Shown: positions 3,762-9,183 of the stretch, one piece after another | How positions within the stretch are numbered: position 1 is the stretch's first letter | Layout of the letters: every line of letters begins with the position of its first letter | NCBI RefSeq assembly: GCF_000016165.1 | Contig: NC_009253.1 | Span: 2,514,332-2,578,331 of the forward strand | Source: Desulforamulus reducens MI-1 | GTDB taxonomy: Bacteria; Bacillota; Desulfotomaculia; Desulfotomaculales; Desulfotomaculaceae | Direction of reading: 5' to 3' | Length of the DNA: 64,000 bases | Notes under the pieces: generated by a model | Told to the model about the DNA's origin: nothing | Databases searched by the model: none | What the model saw: only the letters and a program-made list of their open reading frames with translations | Translations under genes and position numbers: made by a program

Positions 3762-4133
3762 TTAAATTGCTATGGATTGTAGGGCGGACGTTACAATGTC
3801 CCGCAACCGTTCAATCTGTTCACTGGGATTAAGCAATACATGGTCAACTTTAGCCTTTATACACTCCATTAAATCATCCTTGGTAACTTGGTCCGTATAA
3901 ACAATAATTAATCCACTATGTAAGTCCTTGATTTGCTGGATAAAGTCAAATCCAGTATCTTTAATTGTTTGCAAAGAGATAAAGATGATGCCCGGCCCCT
4001 TTGATACAATACTTGTAACGGCTTCACTTGTGTTGCCACACTCATAGGTAAGAAAATTAAACTGCCAAAGAAGAAGCTTCAAGTCGTATCGGGTTGCTGC
4101 ATTTTTATCAATGATGAGACTAGCGTTTGTCAT
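3762..4133 (-). CDS. Degenerate response-regulator receiver protein
   Basis: A 123-residue stand-alone protein with the length and pattern of a CheY-like receiver: beta1 NASLIIDKN, beta3 GPGIIFISLQ, beta4 GLIIVYTDQ and beta5 VDHVLLNPS. The acidic pair after beta1 is reduced to a single Asp (DKN), the phospho-acceptor Asp at the end of beta3 is replaced (FISLQ, near residue 53), and the beta5 Lys of the KP motif is absent (LLNPS). It therefore probably cannot be phosphorylated in the usual way. The upstream gene is a PAS histidine kinase and the leader carries a c-di-GMP-I riboswitch with a hairpin over the ribosome binding site, so it is more likely an output of c-di-GMP signalling than a phosphorelay partner. 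Function unknown. Confidence 0.8.
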   Translation of the reverse strand: MTNASLIIDKNAATRYDLKLLLWQFNFLTYECGNTSEAVTSIVSKGPGIIFISLQTIKDTGFDFIQQIKDLHSGLIIVYTDQVTKDDLMECIKAKVDHVLLNPSEQIERLRDIVTSALQSIAI

Positions 4134-4143
4134 AAATGCAAAT

Positions 4144-4161
4144 CCTCCTTATAAAAGGAGG
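4144..4161 (-). promoter_or_regulatory. Hairpin that buries the ribosome binding site of the receiver-like gene
   Basis: On the minus strand CCTCCTT, loop TTAT, AAGGAGG: the whole Shine-Dalgarno sequence is in a 7-bp stem, 10 bases before the ATG at 4133. The preceding bases GACCCTCC (4164-4157) can instead pair over 7 bp with GAGGGTC (4223-4217) inside the riboswitch, giving two exclusive folds. Confidence 0.7.
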
Positions 4162-4180
4162 GTCATGGAGTGTTAATCAG

Positions 4181-4265
4181 CACCCGGAGCAACTGGCTGT
4201 CATAGGTTCCCCCTTAGACCCTCTAGCTTTGCGCCCCTACCTTTCAGTAGGTTTGCCTTTCTTTA
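4181..4265 (-). ncRNA. Cyclic di-GMP-I (GEMM-I) riboswitch
   Basis: The minus strand reads AAAGGCAAACC, a stem capped by a GAAA tetraloop-type turn (CTACTGAAAGGTAG), then GCGCAAAGC, GGGTCTAAG and ATGACAGCCAGTTGC, the conserved series of the GEMM-I class including the GAAA tetraloop and its receptor region. A TATATAAT -10 box at about 4280-4287 gives it its own promoter between the kinase gene and the receiver-like gene. The downstream SD-sequestering hairpin suggests translational control. Class assignment by motif memory, strong match. Confidence 0.85.
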
Positions 4266-4349
4266 TTATGTTAATTTAAATTATATAGACTTTGTTTCAT
4301 CTTTAAAATAGGACATCTGTCCCGGTTCACAACCAATAGACACTCTATT

Positions 4350-6010: not shown

Positions 6011-7741
6011 TTATACATAGTTTCTTCCAATATTGGCCATTGCAGAACCAATGTTCAGAAGTTGATCATAGGTAGCAACGATCTGTTCCAGGGAATTTGT
6101 TACAACCTTAATGGCCTTTTCCTGTTCCAAAATCATTACACTATCTTCTCTAAGACTATTTAAAACACTGGCAATATCTGCAAAGGCATTGGTGGCTTGT
6201 TCGGATTGCAACTTTGTTTCAGCAGCAATCTTTTTAATTTCTTCTAAGTCAGGACTCAGGGTAGTTGTTTCCCCTGTATCTTGATTGGTAGGACATTGAT
6301 ACTGTGATACCATATCTAAAACTTTATTGGCCAGTTCTAGTGTGTCTTTAGCAATGGTATTGGTCTCTTTAATTAGCCCCTCCAAATGTTGATTACGAAC
6401 ATTCATTTTTGATGTGGATCCCTTAAGGGTTAGGGTTGAAAAATTAATAGATTCCATCGAAAGCATTAACTTATTACTCATGTCCATAAGACTATTGGTT
6501 AAGGCTGGCACCTGACTCAGGAGAAAGGGGAGACACATTTCTTTTTCTGCCATACCCTGCAAACAAGCAACAGCTTTTTCCCAACAGGTATCATAACCAC
6601 AGGCGCTGCAATTAACCAGATCCCTTGCACTAAGTTTACCGGTTTCCCTTAATGTTTGCCAAACTTGTTCATCAGTAAATTCCTTTTTTACAATTGGTTT
6701 TGCCTTAAAGGTGCGCTGAAAAGTTAGTTCCTTTATCTTCTGCAAAAATTCTTCATTCGGGGGGAGGTTATTGTTATTCTTAACAGTATTAAAAACCAAC
6801 TGGGACCTTACCACCGATGGTTTTTCACTCACCATGCCTGGTCCCATCACACAGCCTTCACATACCAGCATATCAACAAACCGAGGTGTAAACTCTCCGC
6901 TGTCAATGGCCCTTAACACCTCAATGCAATGCCGGGCCCCTTCCACCACTACAATTTCCATGCTGGCAATATCTTCATTAATACCAGAGGTTTTTAACAG
7001 ACCTCCACTGATGGGAAAAGTCCTTGCTATATCTGGTTGTGGATTTTCCCAAGGTTCTTCACTGAGCTGTTGCCATTCCATTTCTTCCTGATTATACCAC
7101 TGCTCAAGTTGTTTAAAGGTAATTACTGCATCAACATAGCCACTGGTATTAGGATCGATTGATTCATTTTTTTTCGACAGACAAGGTCCAATAAATACTA
7201 TTTTATAATCCGGGTAAACACGCTTTATGATCTTTGCCTGGATTAACATAGGAGAATCAATGGGGGCCAAGCAATCTAATAATTGGGGGAAATATTTTTC
7301 AACCAGTTGAACAACAGCCGGGCAAGCAGTTGATATAATTGGCTGTTTTCTACTAACTTGATAGAAATATTTTTTATATTCTCTGGCACATATTCCTGCT
7401 CCATATGCCACTTCCTGAACACTAGAAAATCCAAGTTTCTTCAGGGAGGATACCATTTTACCTGCGGATAAGGCAAAGGATGCAGAGTACGATGGAGCAA
7501 CGATGGCAGCCACTTTTTTCCCTTCTGCTAGCCACTGTTGGATAATCGGCTTCTCGTCCTGGACTAATTTCGCTCCAATGGAACAGGCAAGAACGCACTG
7601 ACCACAACAAAGGCACCCTTCTTCAATAATTTCCGGGAGACCTCTTTTTATAGAGATTGTTTTAACAGGGCATGCCCTCACACATGCATAACATTTTCTA
7701 CAATTATCACGATCAGTCGTAATTAAGGCGATAATAATCAC
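6011..7741 (-). CDS. [FeFe]-hydrogenase-like iron-sulfur sensor protein
   Basis: A 576-residue modular protein. Residues 10-60 hold two 4Fe-4S motifs (CRKCYACVRACP and CLCCGQCVLAC). Residues about 75-320 match the large-subunit catalytic fold of [FeFe] hydrogenases, but the H-cluster motifs are altered: L1 reads STACPAVV (canonical TSCCP, proton-transfer Cys replaced by Ala), L2 reads GPCLSKK, and L3 reads CEGCVMGPG (CxxC rather than CxxxC). Around residue 375 an ARLF-type Fe-S motif (CSACGYDTCWEKAVACLQG) follows, then a long helical, coiled-coil-like C-terminus. This is the build of sensory (HydS/HsfB-like) rather than catalytic enzymes. No hydABC partners nearby. Start: GTG at 7741 directly abuts GGGGG; the true start may be a few codons inside. 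Confidence 0.8.
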   Translation of the reverse strand: MIIIALITTDRDNCRKCYACVRACPVKTISIKRGLPEIIEEGCLCCGQCVLACSIGAKLVQDEKPIIQQWLAEGKKVAAIVAPSYSASFALSAGKMVSSLKKLGFSSVQEVAYGAGICAREYKKYFYQVSRKQPIISTACPAVVQLVEKYFPQLLDCLAPIDSPMLIQAKIIKRVYPDYKIVFIGPCLSKKNESIDPNTSGYVDAVITFKQLEQWYNQEEMEWQQLSEEPWENPQPDIARTFPISGGLLKTSGINEDIASMEIVVVEGARHCIEVLRAIDSGEFTPRFVDMLVCEGCVMGPGMVSEKPSVVRSQLVFNTVKNNNNLPPNEEFLQKIKELTFQRTFKAKPIVKKEFTDEQVWQTLRETGKLSARDLVNCSACGYDTCWEKAVACLQGMAEKEMCLPFLLSQVPALTNSLMDMSNKLMLSMESINFSTLTLKGSTSKMNVRNQHLEGLIKETNTIAKDTLELANKVLDMVSQYQCPTNQDTGETTTLSPDLEEIKKIAAETKLQSEQATNAFADIASVLNSLREDSVMILEQEKAIKVVTNSLEQIVATYDQLLNIGSAMANIGRNYV

Positions 7742-8974: not shown

Positions 8975-8991
8975 TAAATTAAGTAAACATT

Positions 8992-9152
8992 TTCTTCGTT
9001 AGGTGAGGCTTCTACATAGACAGATGCCACTGCCCGGAAATGTCGAGAGACTCTAACGGGTTAACAGGTATTACCGGATTAAGGTTTTACCTAATGTGGC
9101 TGGGACATTCCCAATGCCCTAGCTATGTATGTGCTAAAGCTTGTACGAGTGG
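8992..9152 (+). ncRNA. M-box (ykoK) magnesium riboswitch
   Basis: The leader contains the conserved M-box blocks in order: GTTAGGTGAGGCT, CACTGCCCGGAAATGTCGAGAG, AACGGGTTAACAGG, AAGGTTTTACCTAATGTGGCTGG and GTGCTAAAGC, with CTTCGT/ACGAG available to close P1. High Mg2+ should favour the terminator that follows. It lies upstream of corA, a Mg2+ transporter gene, which agrees with the class. Confidence 0.95.
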
Positions 9153-9183
9153 GGAGGCCAATTAGCCCCTTTGGGGGTGTTCT

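Follow-up and report, generated by a model that had tools for sequence, protein, structure and literature searches.

The window analysed here is a stretch of 64,000 nucleotides from Desulforamulus reducens MI-1, whose genome consists of a single contig of 3,608,104 bases with six matches to RF01051, the c-di-GMP-I riboswitch family. One of these matches lies in the window on the minus strand (4267-4185), directly upstream of a gene on the same strand (3762-4133) for a stand-alone degenerate receiver of 123 amino acids. The receiver gene sits between a PAS histidine kinase gene and a permease gene, the latter placed behind a purine riboswitch (Rfam match at 3656-3555, minus strand). Beside the PAS kinase gene, a further gene (6011-7741, minus strand) carries an iron-hydrogenase large-subunit domain together with Fe-S motifs, as in the sensory hydrogenases. 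On the plus strand, Rfam also places a Moco/Wco riboswitch (921-1040) before a gene at 1174 for a tungstate/molybdate-binding lipoprotein-like protein, and an M-box riboswitch at 8988-9160; altogether, four riboswitch classes are found within about 8 kb of the window.

The first-pass annotation had described the target as a receiver-like protein that lost its phospho-Asp, next to a PAS kinase. The two genes do adjoin each other in the window, but a functional link between them finds no support: the neighbours differ at the orthologues read, and this non-conserved neighbourhood, together with the leader's own promoter-like site (TTTAAA-16-TATAAT, 4280-4307, minus strand, 10 of 12 consensus matches), speaks against it. 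Such promoter-like sites occur in the region at the level of chance, and it is the position of this one that points to a leader promoter. Given the unrelated neighbours at the orthologous loci, the receiver gene is most plausibly a unit of one gene with a promoter to itself.

A degenerate receiver family

The receiver nature of the protein and the loss of its phosphorylation site hold on closer reading. It matches the Pfam Response_reg model (PF00072) with 34.4 bits over a cut-off of 30.2, its AlphaFold2 model shows a receiver fold (pLDDT 88), and Foldseek matches this model to receivers with E-values of about 1e-7 to 1e-6 and TM-scores of about 0.8; among the NCBIfam models, none scores above its cut-off. 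The acceptor Asp and the conserved Lys of phosphorylatable response regulators are both absent, their positions being taken by Ser53 and Asn102. Across the family, the acceptor position is Ser or Ala in all 11 aligned members. The fold is that of Spo0F/CheY-type stand-alone receivers and of the phosphorylation-independent, FrzS-like ones, from which these proteins differ as a distinct family by the change of the acceptor Asp to Ser, less often to Ala, and of the Lys to Asn in most members.

When 113 genomes of the class were searched with a profile, 15 members of this family emerged from nine of them, with scores of about 95-207 bits, clearly separate from ordinary receivers, which score near 60 bits and below. 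Beyond the window's own protein, no member appeared among 398 sampled genomes of the phylum, and the eight other genomes of the same genus that were searched yielded no close homologue. The paralogues of loci L011, L023 and L024 extend beyond the receiver domain in a conserved C-terminal tail (about EGG-x-M/I-x-W), and the Pelotomaculum orthologue (L096, 2380) has no ATG, GTG or TTG at the expected place after its Shine-Dalgarno (SD) sequence, its frame suggesting an ATT start. Since the family lacks a phosphorylation site, c-di-GMP most likely provides the input of these receivers by setting their amount, in place of a kinase that phosphorylates them.

Aptamer and Shine-Dalgarno hairpin

A c-di-GMP-I (GEMM-I) aptamer had been proposed on the minus strand, with an Infernal search against RF01051 as the means to check it. 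In this search, cmscan aligns 4267-4185 with the full model (1-87) at 69.7 bits (E 1.4e-11 for the window), against a gathering score of 35 bits, which upholds the assignment. In Vc2 numbering, counted along the Vc2 sequence, the ligand contacts G20, A47 and C92 align with G at 4256, A at 4229 and C at 4189; the G at 4256 indicates the c-di-GMP type rather than the c-AMP-GMP type. These three letters and the GNRA tetraloop, which is GAAA, are invariant in all nine leaders compared. Judged by its sequence, the element is a genuine c-di-GMP-I riboswitch and is predicted to bind its ligand.

The helices are named P1, P2 and P3 after PMC4744006. According to the cmscan alignment, P3 comprises the pairs 4217-4201, 4218-4200, 4219-4199, 4220-4196 and 4221-4195, wherein the 5′ strand GGGUC faces GAC-AG-CC (4201-4195), the 3′ strand GACAGCC of the ligand-bound aptamer (4195-4201, minus strand). 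The aptamer, the GAAA tetraloop and the G20/A47/C92 positions are those of the RF01051 class, from which this element departs in its P3 5′ strand (CTAGAGGGTC instead of the common form CCACGGGTC) and in having almost no P1. In the leaders of the receiver family P1 amounts to 0-2 bp, and its near-absence may be the reason why P3 would have become the switching helix.

Downstream of the aptamer, the minus strand reads CCTCCTT (4161-4155), TTAT and AAGGAGG (4150-4144), a hairpin (4144-4161) that buries the entire SD sequence (AAGGAGG, 4144-4150), as the first reading had it. The SD sequence stands 10 nt before the ATG start codon (4133-4131). The stem of the hairpin is retained in the orthologues despite their differing loops and stem letters, and in the window it also fits a weak terminator pattern. 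Its 5′ arm is overlapped by GACCCTC (4164-4158), and GGGUC of P3 forms part of GAGGGTC (4223-4217), both strands lying exactly where they had been claimed. GAGGGTC thus holds the P3 5′ strand and is the exact complement of GACCCTC, so that P3 and the anti-sequestor formed by these two strands cannot coexist, as had been suggested, and the hairpin holding the SD sequence is likewise incompatible with this alternative pairing to an aptamer strand. As GAGGG is itself SD-like, part of its match to the anti-SD arm is built in. The pairing goes beyond chance in that the GAC preceding this arm is a 1-in-64 match in the window leader alone and the complementarity recurs in all related leaders. We consider it likely that the element works as a translational OFF switch for the receiver gene, with the 5′ strand of P3 as its switch strand.

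Retention of the pairing across leaders

RF01051 matches stand directly upstream of 9 of the 15 family members recovered from the class. P3 has the form TARAGGGTC in these leaders and in none of 79 other c-di-GMP-I aptamers parsed from the class, where it is mostly CACGGGTC or CATGGGTC, and the altered purines lengthen the complementarity toward the anti-SD arm. A pattern made of RNA letters and blind to the protein (GGGTCTAA, TATGRCAGCC and GRCCCTCC with gaps), run over 84,980 genomes, met five other loci (Peptococcaceae BICA1-7, Pelotomaculum UBA3102, Desulfocucumis palustris, Bacillota MES5 and Desulfovirgula Tomsk), all five directly before the same receiver gene. Ten copies of the shorter P3 variant CTARAGGGTCTAARGG are present in the 113 genomes; nine precede genes of the receiver family and one precedes flgB.

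The seven anti-sequestor pairs are paired in 62 of 63 cells over nine leaders, compared with 30-65% in slid controls. GRC precedes the anti-SD arm in all nine, while the spacer before it is divergent and 15 to 32 nt long. Two-sided compensatory changes are absent from these nine leaders, where all changes are one-sided (to G-U), and column shuffles equal every pairing measure, for which reason the anti-sequestor shows conservation and not covariation. The best downstream duplex of the P3 strand is modestly better in energy than in other leaders (p 0.004, among related sequences). Plain complementarity over 110 nt separates these leaders poorly from other c-di-GMP-I leaders, which leaves the argument to position and conservation. 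Comparison of the window with eight other leaders speaks for the proposed wiring of an aptamer strand against the SD hairpin, which is well supported on these sequence grounds and is kept across several related genera.

The flgB copy of this P3 variant belongs to a c-di-GMP-I aptamer (L182, contig C36 of genome G036, 1557-1472, minus strand) that is followed by a terminator. AUCCUC in the terminator arm can form six pairs with GAGGGU, with a probability of about 0.9 in folding calculations before the other terminator arm is made. This one case suggests that the P3 strand may serve either output, an SD hairpin or a terminator, and it also lends something to a different reading of the window, where the hairpin at 4161-4144 would be mainly an intrinsic terminator favoured by c-di-GMP, transcription would stop there, and SD masking would be a by-product. 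A terminator scan does list this hairpin as terminator-like, and the T run behind it is longer in some orthologues (CTTTTTTT in L099 and ATTTTTT in L095). The tail in the window, however, is interrupted (ATTTGCATTT) and that of L098 reads TTTCC, whereas the stem, with four G-C pairs, is built on the SD sequence itself, and all leaders have the start codon 6-10 nt beyond it. We therefore regard termination as an unlikely main role of this hairpin.

Predicted direction of the switch, and its relatives

The energetics of the translational switch were calculated with ViennaRNA, a model of secondary structure without tertiary contacts or ligand. With P2 and P3 enforced, as in a locked aptamer, the unpaired probability of the SD sequence is 0.00 in all six core leaders; with the anti-sequestor enforced, SD exposure rises to 0.27-0.63, the energy gap between the two states being -1.0 to +4.1 kcal/mol. 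In the growing, ligand-free transcript, the probability of the anti-sequestor is 0.97-1.0 in five of the six until the SD sequence begins to emerge, and 0.73 in the sixth (L099). Up to three SD bases out, the five keep to 0.95 or more (L095 has 0.84 at that length); the probability declines in most leaders as the SD sequence emerges, while L097 remains at 0.9. When all 64 triplets were swapped in before the anti-SD arm, the native one ranked first in five of the six core leaders and third in L099; for the window leader, the native GAC gives 0.97, compared with a median of 0.02 over the 64 options.

These calculations suggest how the switch could operate. Without c-di-GMP, the nascent leader would open P3 and form GAGGGUC:GACCCUC before the SD sequence is made, which would then emerge free for a ribosome to load. 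Bound c-di-GMP would instead lock P3, GACCCUC would be freed, its arm would close on AAGGAGG, and the receiver would no longer be translated at high c-di-GMP. The OFF direction is thus a prediction that follows from the anatomy of the leader and from its folding. At full length and without ligand, the window leader refolds to a closed SD hairpin (unpaired 0.01), which requires the ON state to be kinetic, and the switch looks like one whose decision would be made while the SD sequence is being transcribed.

The closed full-length leader could also mean that the anti-sequestor goes unused, the SD hairpin being always closed or otherwise controlled, and c-di-GMP acting weakly or via another pairing. 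The lack of compensatory changes would agree with this, as would the paralogue leaders L011 and L023, which do not favour the alternative pairing (L024 is mixed). It is nevertheless an improbable account, as GRC has been kept in the nine leaders even though the SD hairpins of the core leaders do not use this triplet, the native triplet comes first among the 64, and in nine of ten cases the tailored P3 variant accompanies the receiver gene. An ON switch, in which c-di-GMP would increase receiver translation as reported for the ON-type relatives Vc1 (PMC4744006) and pilM (PMC9262584), is very unlikely and was rejected on anatomy, since the strand that opens the SD hairpin belongs to P3, which the ligand should stabilise, and a locked P3 buries the SD sequence in every core leader.

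An OFF switch of the c-di-GMP-I class has precedents. Vc2 of Vibrio cholerae, going by the title of Inuzuka 2018 (cited in PMC11218506), represses translation by masking the ribosome-binding site; on the strength of this title, c-di-GMP-dependent masking is shared with the present leader and the target gene differs. Cd1 of Clostridioides difficile shares the OFF logic at the level of transcription: its aptamer, once bound to the ligand, is compatible with the repressive hairpin and in competition with an alternative fold, an antiterminator that takes the 3′ strand of the aptamer (G147-C87 and C148-G86; PMC9262584), whereas here the P3 5′ strand would act as the switch strand, with SD masking as the output. 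As Cd1 and Vc2 are already OFF-type c-di-GMP-I switches, the kind of switch and its logic are known. The CmrRST system of C. difficile uses a class II riboswitch. It resembles the present case in the c-di-GMP-linked control of response-regulator genes (PMC8844915), but is an unrelated system of three genes.

In the literature searched, with most subscription journals outside its scope, there is no description of the P3 5′-strand wiring, of this leader or of the receiver family; the aptamer class is known, and the wiring and the target family look undescribed. Tentatively, they could be seen together as a conserved module of one class, where a receiver gave up control by phosphorylation and has its abundance set by a c-di-GMP riboswitch whose P3 was reshaped (CACGGG to UAGAGGG), the 5′ strand of this helix being a switch strand that could be coupled to either an SD hairpin or a terminator. 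Most work on c-di-GMP-I riboswitches covers few switches. The aptamer sequence seems here adapted to its output, so that the switching strand might be predicted from changes in a helix supposed to be conserved. Moreover, the module ties c-di-GMP to a receiver family devoid of a phosphorylation site, a simple and testable case of a two-component part with a changed input.

Some observations concern the upstream regions at large. In the MES5 genome (G053), which contains 15 c-di-GMP-I aptamers, the receiver gene is accompanied by two that lie within about 1 kb (L009, 2747-2837, plus strand). Upstream of the receiver genes at L039 and L040, remnants of the first hairpin of the aptamer (GGCAAA...) are discernible by eye, with the remainder absent; even at E 10, Rfam gives no c-di-GMP match there. 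These could possibly be decayed riboswitches. A palindrome like TAGGACTATAGTCCTA is present upstream of most genes of the receiver family, with or without a riboswitch (as in L034, L011, L096, L098 and L024), its copy in the window (4323-4308) being weak (10 of 16) and its genome-wide counts mostly not above control. It also adjoins some other c-di-GMP-I aptamers (G053:C3:197633 and G053:C1:292955), and is possibly a candidate operator of some regulator.
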